This document shows, in pieces, positions 29,201-37,506 of a DNA stretch of 64,000 nucleotides. The notes beneath the pieces are model-generated. The model saw only the letters and a program-made list of their open reading frames with translations. It was not told the origin of the DNA and made no database searches. This stretch comes from Novosphingobium subterraneum (GTDB lineage Bacteria > Pseudomonadota > Alphaproteobacteria > Sphingomonadales > Sphingomonadaceae), in assembly GCF_000807925.1 (NCBI RefSeq), contig NZ_JRVC01000002.1, forward strand, positions 1-64,000, given 5' to 3'. The translations under genes were made by a program, and so were the position numbers. Position 1 is the first letter of the stretch. The number at the start of each line of letters is the position of its first letter.

Positions 29201-30487
29201 GTGAGCGAAAACCAGGCTTCTTTGACCGCTGGCGGCAACAGCGTGGACATGCCGATCAAGAGCGGCACCATCGGGCCGGACGTCATCGACATCCGCAAGC
29301 TCTATGGCCAGACGGGCATGTTCACCTATGACCCGGGCTTCACTTCGACGGCAAGCTGCGACAGCGCACTGACCTACATCGACGGTGATGAGGGCGTGCT
29401 TCTGCACCGCGGTTACCCGATCGGCCAGTTGGCCGAGCATTCGTCGTTCATGGAAGTGAGCTACCTGCTGCTTAACGGCGAACTGCCGAGCCAGCAGGAA
29501 CTTGCGGACTTCAGCCGCACGATCACCCGCCACACGATGCTGCACGAGCAGCTTGCCACGTTCTATCGCGGCTTCCGTCGCGATGCGCACCCGATGGCGA
29601 TCATGTGCGGCGTCGTCGGCGCGCTCTCGGCGTTCTACCACGACAGCACCGACATTGCTGACCCGACGCATCGCAAGATCAGCTCGCACCGCCTGATCGC
29701 CAAGATGCCGACGATCGCGGCGATGGCCTACAAGTATTCGGTTGGCCAGCCCTTCGTCTATCCGGACAACAAGCTGTCCTATACCGGCAACTTCCTGAAG
29801 ATGACTTTCGGCGTTCCGGCCGAAGAGTACGAAGTGATCCCTGCTGTCGAGAAGGCAATGGATCGCATCTTCATCCTTCATGCCGATCACGAGCAGAACG
29901 CTTCGACCTCGACCGTCCGTCTGGCCGGTTCCTCGGGCGCCAATCCGTTTGCCTGCATCGCGGCAGGCATCGCCTGTCTGTGGGGCCCGGCGCACGGCGG
30001 CGCGAACGAAGCCGCGCTCAACATGCTCAAGGAGATCGGGACCCCCGATCGCATCCAGCACTACATCGACCGCGCCAAGGACAAGAACGATCCGTTCCGC
30101 CTGATGGGCTTCGGTCACCGCGTCTACAAGAACTACGATCCGCGCGCGACCGTCATGCAGCAGACCGTGCGCGAAGTGTTCGACGCGCTGAAGGTCAACG
30201 ATCCGCTGTTCGAGACCGCCCTGCGCCTCGAGGAAATCGCGCTCAGCGATCCGTACTTCGCGGAGAAGAAGCTGTTCCCGAACGTGGACTTCTACTCGGG
30301 CATCATCCTTTCGGCGATTGGCTTCCCGACGACGATGTTCACGGTGCTCTTCGCCCTCGCCCGTACCGTGGGCTGGGTCGCACAGTGGAACGAAATGATC
30401 AGCGATCCTGGCCAGAAGATCGGACGTCCGCGCCAGCTCTACACCGGCCCGACGCAGCGCGACTACGTGCCGCTGAGCGAACGCTGA
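29201..30487 (+). CDS. gltA: Citrate synthase (type II)
   Basis: This is the first enzyme of the citric acid cycle, condensing acetyl-CoA and oxaloacetate. The 428-residue protein has the catalytic histidine segments [13 protein letters not shown] and [15 protein letters not shown] and the aspartate in [10 protein letters not shown], the layout of hexameric Gram-negative citrate synthases. It starts with GTG, preceded by GGAGG. The last 60 bases of the gene are duplicated 116 bases downstream (see the repeat entries). Confidence 0.97.
30428..30487 (+). repeat. Direct repeat copy 1: 3-prime end of gltA
   Basis: This 60-base segment encodes the citrate synthase C-terminus including the stop. 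It recurs at 30544-30603 with only two mismatches (58 of 60 identical). Confidence 0.93.
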
Positions 30488-30496
30488 GGCGTGAGA

Positions 30497-30550
30497 GGCG
30501 CGGCCGCACTTTTCGTGCCGGTTTCTCGAGAGAAACCGGATGGCCGCGCC
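30497..30550. repeat. Long imperfect hairpin between gltA repeat copies
   Basis: Outer arms GGCGCGGCC (30497-30505) and GGCCGCGCC (30542-30550) flank inner arms CCGGTTTCTC and GAGAAACCGG (30518-30539) separated by GA. The right outer arm overlaps the start of repeat copy 2. There is no T-tract. It could act as the gltA 3-prime stabiliser or terminator, or be the core of a small palindromic mobile repeat. Confidence 0.7.
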
Positions 30551-30603
30551 GGCTCTACACCGGCCCGACGCAGCGCGACTGCGTGCCGCTGAGCGAACGC
30601 TGA
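30544..30603 (+). repeat. Direct repeat copy 2: duplicated gltA 3-prime end
   Basis: This is the non-coding second copy of the gltA terminal 60 bases, with an A-to-G change at its eighth base and another at its 38th base. The 116-base offset is not a multiple of three, so it is not an in-frame extension of gltA. Confidence 0.93.
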
Positions 30604-30630: not shown

Positions 30631-30822
30631 ATGGCGACAGTTCTCAGGATTTTCGGCATCGTCGCCCTTCTCATGGGCGGCTTGTGGATCGGACAGGGGC
30701 TGGGCCTGATCATGTGGCCGGCATCGAGCTTCATGCTCGCCCAGACACAATGGGCCTATATCGGCGCAGGCTTGATGCTGATCGGCGCGCTTGCAATCTG
30801 GCGCGCATCGCGGCGTGGCTGA
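30631..30822 (+). CDS. Small two-helix membrane protein
   Basis: The protein is 63 residues long with two predicted membrane helices (VLRIFGIVALLMGGLWIGQGLGL and WAYIGAGLMLIGALAIW) joined by a short loop and ending in a basic tail (RASRRG). AGGAAAGGG lies upstream of the ATG. The function is unknown. It ends three bases before the stop of the convergent kinase-like gene. Confidence 0.65.
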   Translation: MATVLRIFGIVALLMGGLWIGQGLGLIMWPASSFMLAQTQWAYIGAGLMLIGALAIWRASRRG

Positions 30823-30825
30823 GCG

Positions 30826-32205
30826 TCAGCCCGCTGCGGTTGCCTGCGCGGCAGTGTCAGCCGGCAACAACAGCACGAATTTCGCGCCGCCATCTGGCGC
30901 CTGCTGGACAGTGAGATCGCCTCCCATCGCGCGTGCCAGTCTGCGCGAGATATAGAGGCCCAGTCCGCTGCCGCCATCGCCACTGCGACCAAGGCGCTCA
31001 AATTTCTCGAAAACCTTTTCGGCGTGCTCCTGAGCAATGCCCTGCCCCTGGTCCAGTACGGTGATCCAGGCGAACTCCCCATCGATGCCGCAATCGACCT
31101 CGACCCGGGTATGTTCAGGCGAGTACCTCACGGCGTTGCCGATGAGGTTGAGGAGAATTTGCAGCACGCGGCGGAATTCCGCGATGGCTGGCGCTGCCAC
31201 ATCGGGCGCGGGGAGTACGAACGCAATGCCCCGTTCCTGCGCCCGCACGCCGAGGATGCCTGCTGCGCGCCGTGCACAATCTACAAGATCGATGTGATCG
31301 GGAGCAGGTGCAAAGCCTTCATCTTCCACCGTCTCAAGGTCGGCAAGGTCTTCGACCAGAGACAGCAGGTGCCGCCCCGCCTCTGCAATATCGCCGGCGT
31401 ACCCTACGTACTGTTCTGCCAATGGACCGGCGAGGCGTGTCCGGATGGTTTCGGCATTGGCCACGATCCGGTTGATTGGCAAACGCAGTGCCGGCGCCAG
31501 CTTGCGCCCCAGCAATCCCTTCCAGTCTGGCTGTGGGAGGGGTTCCGGCGCAGCAGCGACAGCCTTGGCCGGGACATTGATCAACACAGTCTCTGCTACG
31601 AGGAGCAGTTCGAACCCCCCGGCACGCAACGGAAGAATGCGCGTCTTCCACACACGGGACGAGCCGGGTACGGCCACCCGGGCTTCGTCAAGCAATCGCC
31701 AGTGCAGCGGTTGGCGGTGTGCATTGCCTTCAAGCGTTACGAAATCGGTCCAGTATTTGCCAAAGCCTTGCTGCAGGCCCGATGCGAGGTCGGCAAGATC
31801 GCCCGCCGTTACAGAACCCGATACGATGCGCTGCTCAGCGTCCAGAACAATGTGCGCCTCGGCCAATTGGCGGACCAGTGCTTCATCGGCGGATGCGGCT
31901 TCATCGCCCTGCCAGGCGTCCGAGGCGACCTTCCAGTCGCTGATCTCGATTCTTGTGCCCGCCCCATCGGGGATGGCGCGCGCCGAAAACGAAAGCGGTT
32001 GCCCTTCGTCCGTCACAGTCATGGCGGCACCCAGGGTCGCTCCCGCCATTCGCGCACGACGAACCAGCGACAGGAGTCCGGGCAGCGCAATCACTCCGGG
32101 GTACCCCCCGCCCAGCCGAACCTGCAGCGCCGCAAGGATCTCGTCGGACTCGACCAGACGGTCCGCACTGTCGCAGCGGGCGCTGATTAGACCTGCGGTG
32201 GTCAC
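30826..32205 (-). CDS. Histidine-kinase-like protein lacking the phospho-accepting histidine
   Basis: The 459-residue soluble protein has a PAS-like N-terminal half, then a dimerisation segment and a well-kept HATPase domain: N-box NLIGNAVRYSP, DQGQGIA and GSGLGLYISRRLA. The region aligning with the kinase H-box reads LAPALRLPIN (about 236-245), so the invariant His and Glu are Pro238 and Ala239, while the later proline remains. Autophosphorylation at the usual site is therefore impossible. It may be a pseudokinase that binds ATP and scaffolds or modulates partners. It is the last gene of a four-gene minus-strand operon. It starts with GTG preceded by AAGGTG. Confidence 0.85.
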   Translation of the reverse strand: MTTAGLISARCDSADRLVESDEILAALQVRLGGGYPGVIALPGLLSLVRRARMAGATLGAAMTVTDEGQPLSFSARAIPDGAGTRIEISDWKVASDAWQGDEAASADEALVRQLAEAHIVLDAEQRIVSGSVTAGDLADLASGLQQGFGKYWTDFVTLEGNAHRQPLHWRLLDEARVAVPGSSRVWKTRILPLRAGGFELLLVAETVLINVPAKAVAAAPEPLPQPDWKGLLGRKLAPALRLPINRIVANAETIRTRLAGPLAEQYVGYAGDIAEAGRHLLSLVEDLADLETVEDEGFAPAPDHIDLVDCARRAAGILGVRAQERGIAFVLPAPDVAAPAIAEFRRVLQILLNLIGNAVRYSPEHTRVEVDCGIDGEFAWITVLDQGQGIAQEHAEKVFEKFERLGRSGDGGSGLGLYISRRLARAMGGDLTVQQAPDGGAKFVLLLPADTAAQATAAG

Positions 32206-32229
32206 GGGGACACCTTCATCTGCTGATCG

Positions 32230-33204
32230 CTATCCGAACGCTTCGCGACGCATCAGGGAAGACGCCAGCATCGCCGCAGCTGCATCAGGTACGATCTGAT
32301 CGATGCCATCGGGCAAGCTGGTCTGCGGATGAAGCGCGGCGAAAGTGGTCACCAGATTCGTGCGGTCAGCTCCTGCAGCCGACAGTGCGAGAGCCATTCG
32401 CGCCATCTGACTTTCGGTCGTGCACATGATCGCCATCTCGCGCGACATGCCCGCTCCCGATGCAAGGGTCGATAGAAAGAGCGCAATGCCCGCAGTATCA
32501 ATTTTCAGACCGCAGCCTGAATCTCCGGCCAATTGGCCAATGACGTGATCGAGAAGTTCAAGACGCGATGCCGCAGTCATCCGTTGCTGGCGCAGCGTGC
32601 TTTCTGCCGCCCCGGCAGCAGCCAGTCCGGATGGGTCCTCGGCAACATAGGCCTGCATCGTCATCAATGCGATATGATGAAGGTCGCCCGGAAGTTCCGA
32701 AAGCGGAATCTGCATGCGTCGCATCAATTGCCCGAATCGCGCCTGCGCCGCGAGCAGGTTCATTCCGCGCGCGGCAAGATCGGGATCGCGCGAAGCGATG
32801 ATGTCTTGAAGCAGGGGGGTAAGCACAGGATCCAGTCCGAGCCTGCCCTGCACCTTCTCGGTGAGTTGCCACTCCACGGCCAGCATGTGCAGATGATTCA
32901 ACAGGGCCTGGTTGCCGGCGAGCATATCCGCCAGGCCATCGCTCGCCTCCCGCGCCCAAGCGGCAGAATTGTCATGACCCGCAGCCTGGCCGACCGCTTG
33001 CACAAGCTGCCGGGCAAGATCGGACAGCATGCCCCGGACCCGGGCAATGATCTCGTCGCTGAAGATCGAGTTATCGTCGTTCCGGAGAAGATGCTGAAGG
33101 ATCGGCCCCATGTGAATCATGACCTGATCGGCATGAGCGAGGTCATCGCGCAGAAGCGCCTCTATCGCGCCGGGATCGGGGGTGAAAGGTACGGTCAGTG
33201 CCAT
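32230..33204 (-). CDS. Unrecognised helical protein in the pseudo-signalling operon
   Basis: A 324-residue, almost entirely alpha-helical soluble protein with no signal peptide or membrane segment. The N-terminal part (ALLRDDLAHADQVM, HMGPILQHLL) and the C-terminal part (LELLDHVIGQLAGDSG, LFLSTLASGAGMSREM) suggest a helical repeat. The C-terminal region faintly recalls the alphaproteobacterial DUF2336 group, but I cannot confirm it. It sits nine bases after the membrane protein gene and 24 bases before the kinase-like gene, so it is co-transcribed and probably functions with them. Confidence 0.7.
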   Translation of the reverse strand: MALTVPFTPDPGAIEALLRDDLAHADQVMIHMGPILQHLLRNDDNSIFSDEIIARVRGMLSDLARQLVQAVGQAAGHDNSAAWAREASDGLADMLAGNQALLNHLHMLAVEWQLTEKVQGRLGLDPVLTPLLQDIIASRDPDLAARGMNLLAAQARFGQLMRRMQIPLSELPGDLHHIALMTMQAYVAEDPSGLAAAGAAESTLRQQRMTAASRLELLDHVIGQLAGDSGCGLKIDTAGIALFLSTLASGAGMSREMAIMCTTESQMARMALALSAAGADRTNLVTTFAALHPQTSLPDGIDQIVPDAAAAMLASSLMRREAFG

Positions 33205-33213
33205 AAGTTGCTC

Positions 33214-34503
33214 TTACGGCCGACTGGTTAACTGCGAGTTAGGCGATCTCTCGGTTGCTGGCGATCTTCCGAGCTGAAGCAACAGTAGGCAGGTGCCGAG
33301 GAGCGCCAGAACGGCAAGTCCGATCGTCGCATCGAATGGCAGCGCCACGCTGACGATGGCGAGCAACAAGCCAAACACCAATCGATCTTCCAGCCAGGCG
33401 GAACGGGGGAAACGCGGCAAGGCAAGGCGCACAAGGCGCGCTCCGCCGACAAGCAGGATCGGGGTGAACCAGTTGAGTCCAAATGGAATCGCGCTGGTGT
33501 AGGGCAACTCGCTGCGCCACGCGGCCAACGTCACCAGTCCAGCGTCGACAATGAGATGGAACAGGGCCACGGCCTTGCGTTCAAGACCCGACGCCAGGAG
33601 CGAATCACGCTCCACCTGCCCCATGAGGCTGGCCACGCGCTCCACCAGCCAGGATAACCCGACAAGCAGGAACCCGGTGGCGGCGTTGCCAAGCCAGCCA
33701 AGGCCCAGACCGAGCAGCCCCAGTATCCCGGCAGCAAGTCCGATCAACGCAGGCCGGGTTCCTGCATGAAGCATGGCTGGACCGAACCTGCGGACGAAGG
33801 CCATGGCCAGCAGCACCCCCGGAGACCCCTCCGCCGCGTCACCGGTAGCCGTATGCAGCCGCAGCCACTGGCGTTCTGCGGCATGGGCTTCTGGCTCGCT
33901 GCGGACCATGGTCCAGCGGCCATCTCCCAGCATGGCGGCAGATACACCGCGCAAAGGCAAGCGGGCCTGAACGGCGAGGCGCAGCAGCGCCGATTGCGCG
34001 TTCCATTCGGGCGGCAGGTCCGCGAGGCCTGCAGCGATCCGTCCCGGAAAGCGCATTGCTCCGGCAAATGCGTGGTTGATGTCGATGCGCTCGAACCCGA
34101 GCGGCAAGGCGCTTTCCGCTGGAAGGGTGAGGACACCCGGCCCTGCCTCGATCAGATCCCGAAACACATCGGGCATGGCGATCAATCCATCACCCACGAC
34201 GATCACGTCGTCTTCGGGCGCGAGCAATGGCACGAGTGCGCGTGCGGTCGCTACGACATGAAACTGCGCTCCGCCTGCCTCGACAACATGCTGAAGCGCA
34301 ACCAGCTCGCCACTGATCCCCTCGGCCATGACCACAAGGCGTTTGGCGCCCAGCGAGAGGGCCAGTCCGATCTGGTGGCGTAATAGCGAGCGTCCGCCTA
34401 TTGGCAGATACCCGCGCAGCCCCGAAGGCGTCGTCGCCGACGCACCCGCAGCCTGCGCCGGATGGGAAGTTTCAATCAGGGAAAGAACCGCGACCCGCAA
34501 CAA
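33214..34503 (-). CDS. Nucleotidyltransferase-like domain fused to an integral membrane domain
   Basis: This is a 429-residue protein. Residues 1 to about 225 look like a Rossmann-type NTP-transferase/MobA-like fold: LPIGGRSLLRHQIGLALSLGAKR, a central VIVVGDGL, and FERIDINHAFAGAM. Residues from about 230 form roughly five to seven membrane helices (LIGLAAGILGLLGLGLGWL, FLLVGLSWLV, FGLLLAIVSVALPF, GLAVLALLGTCLLLL). The layout resembles bifunctional inositol-phosphate cytidylyltransferase/CDP-alcohol phosphotransferase proteins, but the aspartate-rich CDP-alcohol motif is not visible, so the membrane part may be degenerate or different. It is co-transcribed with the Hpt-like and kinase-like genes. 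Confidence 0.72.
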   Translation of the reverse strand: MLRVAVLSLIETSHPAQAAGASATTPSGLRGYLPIGGRSLLRHQIGLALSLGAKRLVVMAEGISGELVALQHVVEAGGAQFHVVATARALVPLLAPEDDVIVVGDGLIAMPDVFRDLIEAGPGVLTLPAESALPLGFERIDINHAFAGAMRFPGRIAAGLADLPPEWNAQSALLRLAVQARLPLRGVSAAMLGDGRWTMVRSEPEAHAAERQWLRLHTATGDAAEGSPGVLLAMAFVRRFGPAMLHAGTRPALIGLAAGILGLLGLGLGWLGNAATGFLLVGLSWLVERVASLMGQVERDSLLASGLERKAVALFHLIVDAGLVTLAAWRSELPYTSAIPFGLNWFTPILLVGGARLVRLALPRFPRSAWLEDRLVFGLLLAIVSVALPFDATIGLAVLALLGTCLLLLQLGRSPATERSPNSQLTSRP

Positions 34504-34573
34504 TTGCCTCCTGTCGCACCATCGTAGGGACTGGCGACGGTCGTGCCAAGGCGGACCGCGGTCGTATCGGGGA

Positions 34574-34879
34574 TTAAGGTTCTATCGCCAAGTCGGCCAG
34601 CATCTGGCGAAGGCGACGAAGAATCGCCGGATCGCCGGGGGCACCGTCCAGCGCCTCCTCCGCAAGGTCGATCAGGCCTTCGGCGTGGAAGCTTGCCGCA
34701 AGGCCTTTCAAACGCAAGGCAGCAACGTGCCAGTTGCCATCGCAGCGGGCCCGACCAAGTAGATCTACCTGCCGCTCGGCACTTTCGATGAATGCCGCGC
34801 GCAGTTCGCGCACGAGTTCGGGATCGTGCCCGGCAGCAGCGGCGAGGTTTGCGTCAAGGGAGGCGCCTTCGTAGGCCAT
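34574..34879 (-). CDS. Hpt-like protein lacking the phospho-accepting histidine
   Basis: The 101-residue helical protein aligns well with histidine-phosphotransfer domains: an opening like LDANLAAAAGHDPELVRELRAAF, then GNWHVAALRLKGLAASF and LIDLAEEAL. In active Hpt proteins the key segment is A-H-x-L-K-G; here it is A-L-R-L-K-G, so leucine replaces the histidine. It probably keeps the four-helix fold as a docking partner instead of a phosphate carrier. It is the first gene of the four-gene operon ending with the kinase-like protein, and lies opposite the coiled-coil gene starting at 34951. Confidence 0.75.
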   Translation of the reverse strand: MAYEGASLDANLAAAAGHDPELVRELRAAFIESAERQVDLLGRARCDGNWHVAALRLKGLAASFHAEGLIDLAEEALDGAPGDPAILRRLRQMLADLAIEP

Positions 34880-34903: not shown

Positions 34904-34918
34904 TTAAGGCGGGGTTTA
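34904..34918. promoter_or_regulatory. Near-consensus CtrA-type site
   Basis: TTAAGGCGGGGTTTA matches the CtrA motif TTAA-N7-TTAA at seven of eight fixed positions. It lies in the 71-base divergent gap between the Hpt-like operon and the coiled-coil gene. A few such near matches are expected by chance in a window of this size. Confidence 0.3.
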
Positions 34919-34950: not shown

Positions 34951-37506
34951 ATGAACGGGGGAAGACGGATCATTCCGATCGATGGCGTCAATGAGGACGC
35001 CGGTGAGGCAACCATGGCCGGGCCAACTGCGCCCGACGATCCCGGTCTGGCATATGTGCCTCCAGCTTTCCTTGAAAAAGCGTCTGCAAGCGATTGGGAT
35101 AGCTCTGAAATGCCTCCGCCTGACAAGGCTTGGCCGGTGCTCCTGCTGGCCGGTGGGGTGATCGCGGGTTGGACGGCTTTCTTCGTATGGGCCGTGATCC
35201 TTGCGCAGCCGGCACCCGCGTCCGCACAGCAATGGGCATGGTGGTCAACGCAATGGAGCGTGCCTGTCCTGCTTGTGCTCGTCCTGCTCCTGGTGGTCAT
35301 GCGTACAAGCCGGCGGGAAGCGGCCCGCTTCGCCGATGCGGCGCGTCTGCTTTCGAACGAATCGGCCGACCTTGAAAGGCGCCTCGTCTCGATCAACACC
35401 GAACTCGCGCTGGCCCGCGACTTCATGGCCGCGCAAGGCCGCGACCTCGATTCGCTGGGACGGATTGCGGTCGATCGCCTTTCGGGCAGCGCCTCACAGC
35501 TTGATGGGCTGATCAGCAGGAACGGTACGCAGATCGACAGGATCGCCGAAGTTTCAGCAGCCGCTCTCGACAACATGGAGAAGCTGCGTGGACAGCTGCC
35601 GGTCATTGCCAATGCCGCCAAGGACGTAACCAACAACATCGGCAATGCCGGACGTACCGCGCATCTGCAGCTTGAAGAACTGGTCTCGGGCTTTCAGCGC
35701 CTCAACGAGTTCGGCCTTGCGAGCGAACGGCAGGTCATGTCGTTTCGCGACCGGGTCGACATTGCTCTTGAAGGCTTTGCCAAGGCTTCCGAAGACCTCG
35801 GCCTTCTTGCCGAGAATCGCTTCGACGCGCTGACGCAGCGCAGCGCCGATCAGGCAGCCCTGGCAGCCGATGCGGAGCAGGCTGCCCTTGCGGCTTGGCG
35901 GGAGCGCAGCGATGCGCATTCGGCATCCCTCAAGGAAACTCTCGCCCAACTCGGCGAGGCGCACGAGGGACTCATCGCGGACTCGGCCGGACGTCTGGCA
36001 CGCTTCGAGGAGGCCGCGCGTTCGCTCACCGCAATGCTCGAAATCCAAGGCCGCGACCTTGACGAACAGCTGGCGCGCAGGCGGGCATCTGCCGAAGCTG
36101 GCGCTGCGGAACAACGCGTGGCTCTCGAAAAACGTCTGGCGGAAATTGACGAAGCCGTTGCCGAGCGCCGCTCTGCGATGGAGCGAGCCGCCGCTTCTGC
36201 TGCCGAAGCTTTGGCGTCCAAGCTGGCCGAGCTTGACCAAGCGATCGAGGCACAGCGCAGGACCCAACTTGTCGAGGCGGAGAATCTCGCCTCCAGATGC
36301 GAGGAAATCGGAAGCAAGGTCAGTGCTTTCTCCGAAGTACTTCGCAACTCTGGTGAACAAGGCGCGCAGACAGCATCCCAGGTCGACCAAGCAATGGCCG
36401 ACCTTAATGCGCGGTTGGGTGAAATGCGCCACGCGCTTTCGGGCACGGACCTGCAGATCGGTGAATTGACCGACTCCGCCGTAAGGCTTCTCGAACTGAT
36501 CCAAGCCGGTGGCGACCACACGCGCACCCAGATTCCGGAAGCCCTGCGCAGCACCGAGGCCGGGCTCAAGGGTCTGGAGGACCGCGTGTTCACTTTGCGC
36601 GATACCTTGCGCGAGGCAGGCGACGGTGGGCGCAGCCTGGCCGAAACCGTTGGGTCTGCTCGCAATGAAGTTTCCAGCACGATCAAGGAATTGCAGAAGG
36701 CGCAGAAGACACTGTCCGAGCAAACGGCCGAGCGCGAGAAGCAACTCGATGCGTTGCGAGAGGTGCTGGCAGGGGTGCGCGCGGAAAGCGATGCGCTTTC
36801 GCGTGACATCGAGAGCCGGCTTTCGGGAGCAATTGGCAGCTTGAACGAGGCTGCGGCCAAGGCTGGCGAAGACCTGCGCGCCAGCACTGCGGGTGAAATC
36901 GAAGGCTTGGCCGAAAGGCTTGGCGAACAGAGCAGCGCTGCCATTGCGCGCGTGCTTCAGGGGCGCGCGGCCGAACTTGTCGGTCGCCTGGAGGAAGCCA
37001 TCGATGCTGCCGCGGCAGCAAGTCGCGACACCGCAATCCAGATGCGTGACCAGTTGGCCAAGGTTGATGAACTGGCCGGCAATCTGGAGGCGCGGGTCGA
37101 TCGGGTTCGCGAAAAGGCAGAGGAAAAGGTCGATAACGACTTTGCCCGTCGTGCCGCCTTGATCACGGAATCGCTGAATTCGTCAGCCATCGACATCGCC
37201 AAGGCGCTTTCGACGGATGTCTCGGAAACCGCTTGGGCATCGTACCTGCGCGGGGACCGCGGCATCTTTACGCGCCGCGCCGTTTCGCTGCTGGAGAGTG
37301 CCGAAGCAAAGGCGGTTCAGGCGCATTATGAAGCCGAAAGCGAATTCCGCGAACACGTGAACCGCTACATACACGACTTCGAATCCATGTTGCGCCAGTT
37401 GCTTTCCACGCGTGACGGTAACGCTCTGGGCGTTACGTTGCTCTCGTCCGACATGGGCAAGCTCTATGTCGCACTGGCGCAGGGGATTGAGCGCCTGCGT
37501 ACCTGA
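34951..37506 (+). CDS. Large membrane-anchored coiled-coil protein, TipN-like architecture
   Basis: An 851-residue protein with a short cytoplasmic N-terminus, two membrane helices (about 61-83, VLLLAGGVIAGWTAFFVWAV, and about 103-117, VPVLLVLVLLLVVM), a very long charged coiled-coil (roughly 120-740, rich in Ala, Glu, Arg, Leu and Gln) and a conserved-looking C-terminal globular end (DRGIFTRRAV, HVNRYIHDFESMLRQLL, GVTLLSSDMGKLYVALAQ). This size and layout are those of Caulobacter TipN, a pole and division-site landmark; identity is inference. An alternative ATG at 35014 has a better ribosome-binding site (GAGG). It diverges from the pseudo-signalling operon. Confidence 0.8.
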   Translation: MNGGRRIIPIDGVNEDAGEATMAGPTAPDDPGLAYVPPAFLEKASASDWDSSEMPPPDKAWPVLLLAGGVIAGWTAFFVWAVILAQPAPASAQQWAWWSTQWSVPVLLVLVLLLVVMRTSRREAARFADAARLLSNESADLERRLVSINTELALARDFMAAQGRDLDSLGRIAVDRLSGSASQLDGLISRNGTQIDRIAEVSAAALDNMEKLRGQLPVIANAAKDVTNNIGNAGRTAHLQLEELVSGFQRLNEFGLASERQVMSFRDRVDIALEGFAKASEDLGLLAENRFDALTQRSADQAALAADAEQAALAAWRERSDAHSASLKETLAQLGEAHEGLIADSAGRLARFEEAARSLTAMLEIQGRDLDEQLARRRASAEAGAAEQRVALEKRLAEIDEAVAERRSAMERAAASAAEALASKLAELDQAIEAQRRTQLVEAENLASRCEEIGSKVSAFSEVLRNSGEQGAQTASQVDQAMADLNARLGEMRHALSGTDLQIGELTDSAVRLLELIQAGGDHTRTQIPEALRSTEAGLKGLEDRVFTLRDTLREAGDGGRSLAETVGSARNEVSSTIKELQKAQKTLSEQTAEREKQLDALREVLAGVRAESDALSRDIESRLSGAIGSLNEAAAKAGEDLRASTAGEIEGLAERLGEQSSAAIARVLQGRAAELVGRLEEAIDAAAAASRDTAIQMRDQLAKVDELAGNLEARVDRVREKAEEKVDNDFARRAALITESLNSSAIDIAKALSTDVSETAWASYLRGDRGIFTRRAVSLLESAEAKAVQAHYEAESEFREHVNRYIHDFESMLRQLLSTRDGNALGVTLLSSDMGKLYVALAQGIERLRT

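Follow-up and report, generated by a model that had tools for sequence, protein, structure and literature searches.

The 64,000-nucleotide window analysed here (Novosphingobium subterraneum contig NZ_JRVC01000002.1, positions 1 to 64,000 of the forward strand) contains a four-gene minus-strand operon at 30826-34879, in which, judging by alignments, three enzyme-derived proteins have lost catalytic residues: a histidine-kinase-like protein, an Hpt-like protein and a membrane protein related to inositol-lipid enzymes. The fourth gene codes for a helical protein. The transcription order is Hpt-like, membrane, helical and kinase-like protein, with intergenic gaps of 70, 9 and 24 nt, and the operon is flanked by gltA on the plus strand and by a divergently oriented coiled-coil gene. 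No response regulator is present in the operon, in agreement with the preliminary description of this DNA, which had been made from the sequence letters without database searches. The genes and sites are as follows.

34574-34879, minus: Hpt-like protein (pseudo-Hpt), 101 aa, with the acceptor His replaced by Leu55
34703-34720, minus: ALRLKG at the AHxLKG site of the Hpt-like protein, from the sequence
33214-34503, minus: membrane protein, 429 aa, a degenerate IPCT-DIPPS relative by fold match
33616-33648, minus: LVERVASLMGQ, remnant of the CDP-alcohol phosphotransferase motif, which reads (P)LDGVDGKLAR in intact relatives (alignments)
32230-33204, minus: helical protein, 324 aa, a divergent DUF2336 relative by profile comparison
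30826-32205, minus: histidine-kinase-like protein (pseudo-histidine kinase), 459 aa (Pfam and orthologue columns)
31471-31500, minus: degenerate H-box LAPALRLPIN, with His replaced by Pro238 and Glu by Ala239
30856-31173, minus: HATPase_c (CA) domain with intact N, G1, F and G2 boxes (Pfam and alignment)

Active sites of the operon proteins and their relatives

The kinase-like protein matched HATPase_c (5.4e-25), and its match to HisKA (2.2e-4) was under the cut-off. Residues 236-245 read LAPALRLPIN, which puts Pro238 at the position of the acceptor His and Ala239 at that of the Glu, and the ATP motifs N357, DQGQG (385-389) and GSGLGL (412-417) are intact. These features had been noted in the preliminary description together with ALRLKG in place of AHxLKG in the Hpt-like protein, and all of them were confirmed. 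When 149 genomes of the window's family were searched with the kinase, 137 (including the window's own) had a match at E <= 1e-20, in some cases to a different kinase; the analysis covered the window and the 120 best further loci, and 16 genomes with weaker matches were left out. Among the 121 kinase orthologues in these loci and the window, the acceptor His was absent from the alignment column in 113, which had Pro (71), Arg (11), Ala (9), Gln (5) or other residues at this position. All 113 His-less proteins keep N357, D385, G387, G412, G414 and G416, and 111 of them keep G389; the window protein is probably able to bind ATP, as predicted from its motifs. A canonical SHELRTP H-box was found in six orthologues (G085, G012, G040, G007, G052 and G056). 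As a separate observation, kinase matches of equal score occurred as two pairs on contig C1 of genome G000 (70603/295738 and 110241/335376), each 225135 bases apart, a spacing that suggests a large duplication or an assembly artefact.

The Hpt-like protein scored just under the PF01627 cut-off of 24.6 bits (7.6e-5, 23.3 bits), with Leu55 at the acceptor position, and its orthologue in G085, which reads AHRLKG, exceeded it (5.5e-9, 36.6 bits). The gene was present in 81 of the 120 loci, giving 82 tabulated proteins with that of the window. The acceptor position is occupied by Met in 23 of them, Leu in 21, Gln in 18, Trp in 10, His in 2 and other residues in the rest. The window protein retains the helix around the lost His (W50, R56, L57, S63 and F64), and W50 is kept in 82/82 and F64 in 81/82 sequences. 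With the outgroup-locus proteins of G085 and G007 added, the His is absent in 80 of 84 orthologues; the G007 protein reads DAHRLKA, its frame breaks just after, and its state was set by hand. Absence of the His throughout the family is ruled out, since G034, G127, G085 and G007 have it; none of 16 Hpts from named genomes, several of these genomes being already counted, had it (0/16). Alignment of orthologues thus shows His loss that is widespread in both proteins but not universal.

Neither the membrane protein nor the helical protein of the window had a Pfam match. An AlphaFold2 model of the membrane protein (mean predicted local distance difference test score, pLDDT, 79) had its best PDB match in 4mnd, the Archaeoglobus IPCT-DIPPS (Foldseek 2.7e-9; Z 23.5 over 366 residues, root-mean-square deviation 5.1, with the next entry about four Z units lower). 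Its profile aligned to those of relatives with an intact active-site motif at 2e-20 over the N-terminal half (hhalign), and a profile of these relatives found 4mnd among PDB sequences at 1.3e-14. The protein is accordingly predicted by modelling to have the two-domain IPCT-DIPPS fold, a nucleotidyltransferase-like domain plus a CDP-alcohol phosphotransferase domain; the preliminary description had recognized the former, and its assignment is here extended to the whole fold. The D..DG..AR motif (DxxDGxxAR) of the phosphotransferase is absent from the window protein, in which LVERVASLMGQ takes its place. Only 15 of 136 genomes have it intact, 8 from the window's family and 7 from elsewhere in the order, and 121 have lost it. 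We take the CDP-alcohol motif to have a third Asp as well, where the relatives with intact D..DG..AR carry His (e.g. GDLEHVADK; L256, L257 and others). In the N-terminal domain, AGxG[TSA]R, which we presume to be the nucleotidyltransferase signature, was found in 0 of 139 relatives, including those with an intact D..DG..AR motif, so that by this signature the domain looks non-catalytic throughout. The protein had a match in 331 of 396 genomes of the order. Among 289 genomes of the class, 17 matched at E <= 1e-10; four of these belonged to the window's family and matched over the full length, and the 13 others mostly matched the C-terminal part, with matches in G309 and G408 extending further.

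An inositol-1-phosphate synthase lies in the fetched stretch of all 15 intact-motif genomes and in that of G040 and G441, in which the motif is decayed (17 genomes in total), and a second CDP-alcohol phosphotransferase gene was found in 14 of the 15. These intact-motif loci hold an inositol-lipid gene set possibly worth studying. A loss of inositol synthesis does not cleanly explain why the enzyme decayed, because the window genome (elsewhere) and 40 others of the 149 family genomes hold an inositol-phosphate synthase. Decayed motifs also occur in L262, L264, L266, L267, L268, L270 and L271, all from other families of the order, and a second intact CDP-alcohol enzyme lies beside four or five of these seven loci (clearly in L262, L266, L270 and L271; not in L264, L267 and L268 by the match list). 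A decayed membrane protein beside an intact CDP-alcohol enzyme is perhaps its pseudo-enzyme partner.

The helical protein, called unknown in the preliminary description, is instead DUF2336-related. A single-sequence search found it in only 69 of the 149 genomes, and iterated profiles were then used on the loci. The window protein itself had no match to DUF2336 (PF10098) at E <= 1, and relatives in the same operon position match this family (L131, 6e-39), as does L175 (2e-64), which adjoins a kinase elsewhere. Its close group aligned to these DUF2336-positive relatives with a probability of 95.9 and an E-value of 5e-9 (hhalign), which by profile comparison makes it a divergent DUF2336 relative. 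The DUF2336 gene adjoins the kinase also in basal loci with an intact His. Relatives at the same operon position match the SpbR model (NF052659) as well, at 42-158 bits, far under its cut-off of 400, whereas the window protein matches neither model. PMC12700997 cites SpbR as a protein of cell-pole development in Caulobacter. For the window protein, the structural model consists of helices throughout (pLDDT 78); a Foldseek search of the PDB gave no known fold at E <= 0.001, a result that does not exclude one.

Gene order, selection and the history of the losses

Besides the Hpt gene, the 120 kinase-selected loci contained the helical protein in 109 cases, the membrane protein in 109 and gltA in 101 within the fetched stretch, and the coiled-coil gene in 103 or 100, depending on whether a loose or a strict threshold was applied; some loci end at contig ends, which affects these counts. 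All four operon genes were present in 74 loci, always in identical order and strand (74/74), and where gltA and the coiled-coil gene were found too, the order and strands were those of the window in 65/65. Selection was examined in 22 pairs of relatives, counting a pair only if both genes were found and the synonymous rate dS was below 1.5. Median ratios of nonsynonymous to synonymous rates (dN/dS) were 0.14 for Hpt (10 pairs), 0.21 for the membrane protein (9), 0.17 for DUF2336 (11) and 0.17 for the kinase (13), compared to 0.24 for the coiled-coil gene (12) and 0.05 for gltA (15). These low values indicate working genes rather than relics, under weaker constraint than gltA. Recent decay or sequencing error is ruled out by the low dN/dS and by the loss of the His in 113 of 121 kinase orthologues.

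Two loci preserve both histidines, which indicates that a former phosphorelay-type set became non-canonical. The gltA locus of G085 has the kinase with SHELRTPL, DUF2336, inositol-phosphate synthase, the membrane enzyme with DGVDGKLAR, Hpt with AHRLKG and the coiled-coil gene, together with another CDP-alcohol phosphotransferase encoded on the other strand; from its gene content and motifs, this basal genome appears to keep the ancestral-type set. The locus of G007, a genome 86% complete with 7% contamination, has the Hpt His, a receiver-domain gene, a motif-less and seemingly frameshifted membrane gene, genes read by eye as flgK and flgL, DUF2336 and a kinase with an intact H-box, whose open reading frame (ORF) extends into other domains. 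In G040 and G052 the DUF2336-kinase pair also lies beside a flgL-like gene. BLAST of the G007 receiver gene against the fetched loci found no other like it. The receiver-domain protein at L269:6021-7091 in this locus seems by eye to have Asn at its phospho-acceptor Asp (LIISNWEMSPVDG), and the same ORF holds an Hpt-like stretch.

Both His states could be scored in 84 genomes, 80 of which have lost both, 2 keep both and 2 keep only the Hpt His. For the kinase His and the membrane motif (111 genomes), 104 have lost both, 5 keep only the kinase His, 1 only the motif and 1 both. These co-occurrence counts are not corrected for kinship. In a tree of the kinases, the six canonical proteins form one clade with the His-less G017 protein as sister; this tree was made by a quick method, has long branches and its root was not inferred. 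In a weakly resolved GltA tree with other families of the order as its outgroup, five of the six canonical-kinase genomes, together with G024 and G109, lie at the basal unresolved fork of the family, and G012 is nested inside the family with G005. On the GltA tree, the kinase His requires at least 2 changes of state, the Hpt His at least 3 and the membrane motif at least 6, with loss and gain indistinguishable. Orthologues with an intact His are thus mostly basal, so that the decay is old, and although such orthologues exist they do not mark recent decay in the window, the meaning that the preliminary description had attached to them.

The losses are separable: in G012 the kinase H-box is intact but the membrane enzyme has decayed, in G017 the enzyme motif is intact but the kinase lacks its His, and G034 and G127 combine an Hpt His with a His-less kinase. 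They go together broadly and not on a single branch. The proposed conversion of a phosphorelay holds in that both His losses are genuine and old and have become fixed across most of the family, but its coordinated nature is not shown. The loss also reaches further than the preliminary description had it, with three enzyme-derived proteins affected instead of two.

Flanking genes and the divergent promoter

Two further features adjoin the Hpt end of the operon.

34951-37506, plus: divergent long coiled-coil protein, a syntenic neighbour that may belong to the module
34904-34918, plus: CtrA-box-like TTAAGGCGGGGTTTA in the divergent promoter region, a pattern match taken as a lead only

The coiled-coil protein has a probable membrane segment near its N-terminus, read by eye from the sequence. 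TTAA-N7-TTWA occurred in 26 of 124 divergent promoter regions of the loci, compared to 0/110 for gltA, 0/11 for gltX, 0/124 for the kinase and 5/114 for DUF2336 in control regions of 150 bp upstream, and 38 of the 124 regions were within one mismatch of TTAA-N7-TTAA versus 5.3 expected from shuffles. However, the 124 regions are related by descent and 98 of them lack the pattern, its spacer carries a conserved GGG that would be superfluous for CtrA, and the window genome has 18 strand matches of the pattern, rarer than the reversed control (64). Putative CtrA control of the divergent promoter is thus a lead only.

On the other side of the operon, the last 67 nt of gltA including the stop codon (30421-30487) are repeated 116 nt downstream at 30537-30603 with 94% identity, possibly an insertion scar; no further copy was found in the genome within 3 mismatches of the 28-nt core of the repeat. 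A small plus-strand ORF at about 30634-30819, convergent with the operon and reading MATVLRIFGIVALLMGGLWIGQG..., likely encodes a small membrane protein.

Known systems and possible roles of the proposed module

The closest studied pseudo-kinase is DivL of Caulobacter (PMC4211667, PDB 4q20), also an alphaproteobacterial protein, which has the histidine kinase fold without the acceptor His and is kept as a regulator; by analogy, it serves as the working example of a kinase without the His that senses another protein. According to that report, the residue in DivL is Tyr550 and binding of an ATP analogue is weak, whereas the window's kinase family has mostly Pro at the Tyr position (Pro in the window) and keeps the ATP motifs strictly. 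The loss of His looks independent of that in DivL, since the nearest relatives with His have SHELRTPL. In one search of PDB sequences with the kinase, 4q20 was weak (7e-9) and well below other kinases (best 2.9e-20), and with these His-bearing relatives the idea that the protein is the sphingomonad DivL is unsupported. A second Caulobacter protein, CCNA_03265, is reported in PMC11481889 to have a kinase domain without the conserved His; as described there it is a hybrid kinase with a receiver domain, and the window kinase has none. IPCT-DIPPS of Archaeoglobus (4mnd) and AF2299 (4o6m) have the same nucleotidyltransferase-like plus CDP-alcohol phosphotransferase architecture as the membrane protein, which differs in the loss of the active-site motif.

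Literature searches on pseudo-histidine kinases, His-less Hpt, inositol-phosphate synthase with CDP-alcohol phosphatidyltransferase, SpbR and a His-less kinase in Novosphingobium, whose scope left out most subscription journals, found no description of such an operon among the matches listed, and searches of the same scope on DUF2336, Sphingomonadales pseudokinase histidine kinases and SpbR with PopZ found no paper. For Hpt without the acceptor His, only plant systems were among the matches listed. Plant pseudo-HPts such as AHP6 have the Hpt fold without the acceptor His and differ in being eukaryotic. Single pseudo-kinases (DivL) and plant pseudo-HPts are thus known, and no description of the combination of a pseudo-kinase, a pseudo-Hpt and a decayed biosynthetic enzyme came up in these searches.

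The former enzymes seem to have been retained for a different task, probably a structural or regulatory one. We give about even chances to the reading in which the operon is a membrane-linked signalling or scaffold module of former enzymes that works without phosphotransfer at the canonical sites. One sub-module would pair the pseudo-kinase with the DUF2336 protein, and binding or release of ATP might change its conformation; the pseudo-Hpt, as a docking adaptor, the decayed IPCT-DIPPS-like protein and the coiled-coil protein would form a second, at the membrane. Together they could signal from protein to protein instead of passing on phosphate, roughly in the manner of DivL, and the distant DUF2336/SpbR link hints at a role at the cell pole or in the cell cycle. 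Taken whole, a fuller version is improbable in our estimate: an ATP-gated device, in which the pseudo-kinase and DUF2336 protein dock via the pseudo-Hpt to a retired inositol-lipid synthase and the coiled-coil membrane protein, would pass a conformational cell-pole or cell-cycle signal under CtrA-like control in much of Sphingomonadaceae.

Several findings weigh against the scaffold-module reading. Histidines persist in some members: the Hpts of G034 (L150) and G127 (L152) retain the acceptor, and the kinases of G024 and G109 retain a His (DHSFKP). ATP gating is not how the DivL precedent is thought to work, given its weak binding of the ATP analogue. Hpt is absent from 39 of the 120 kinase-selected loci, and among 49 named loci selected by the membrane gene, 5 have Hpt and the coiled-coil gene without kinase or DUF2336. 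Since the Hpt and kinase genes occur apart, they need not belong to one complex, and it may be the membrane protein and the coiled-coil gene, and not the kinase, that the pseudo-Hpt serves. Of the 14 loci read from other families of the order, 7 (G493, G441, G456, G440, G434, G482 and G487) have a decayed or altered membrane motif, and no kinase orthologue or Hpt of the window's kind was found beside these genes. The decay of the membrane enzyme thus need not belong to the signalling change, which weakens one shared cause for all three losses. These distributions, and the DUF2336-kinase pair beside a flgL-like gene in G007, G040 and G052, speak for genes that are neighbours but not one machine, with pseudo-Hpt and the IPCT-DIPPS-like protein serving the coiled-coil protein and the DUF2336-pseudo-kinase pair as a separate unit; we consider this unlikely, as the four operon genes and the coiled-coil gene occur together in 74 of 120 loci and the gaps inside the window operon are short.

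Another explanation keeps the phosphate chemistry and lets the kinase act in trans, its CA domain phosphorylating the His of a partner kinase or another residue accepting the phosphate. The strictly kept ATP-binding residues are consistent with it, as are the 44 HATPase_c matches in the window genome, by which possible partners abound, and a nearby His or a heterodimer is suggested for CCNA_03265 in PMC11481889. From the alignment, His65 of the Hpt, present in 49 of 82 proteins, could be such an alternative acceptor, which would also count against the scaffold; but it is Gly in 26 of the 82, and the G085 protein has Gly there. The Glu adjoining the kinase acceptor is lost too, and the position of the His has no uniform substitute (Pro in 71 of 113, the rest mixed), so that catalysis in trans seems to us doubtful. 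It is very unlikely that the membrane protein retains a lipid- or nucleotide-related activity regulated by the signalling-like proteins: the fold is kept and the ancestral context is inositol-phosphate lipid synthesis, but D..DG..AR is lost in 121 of 136 genomes and only 17 genomes have inositol-phosphate synthase in the fetched stretch, the window genome having one elsewhere.

With its relatives that keep the intact set, the operon provides a natural series in which the change from phosphorelay to scaffold can be followed. This series offers defined proteins, ancestral-type controls and a testable contrast, ATP binding without phosphotransfer, in a conserved operon that spans a large family of soil and water bacteria.

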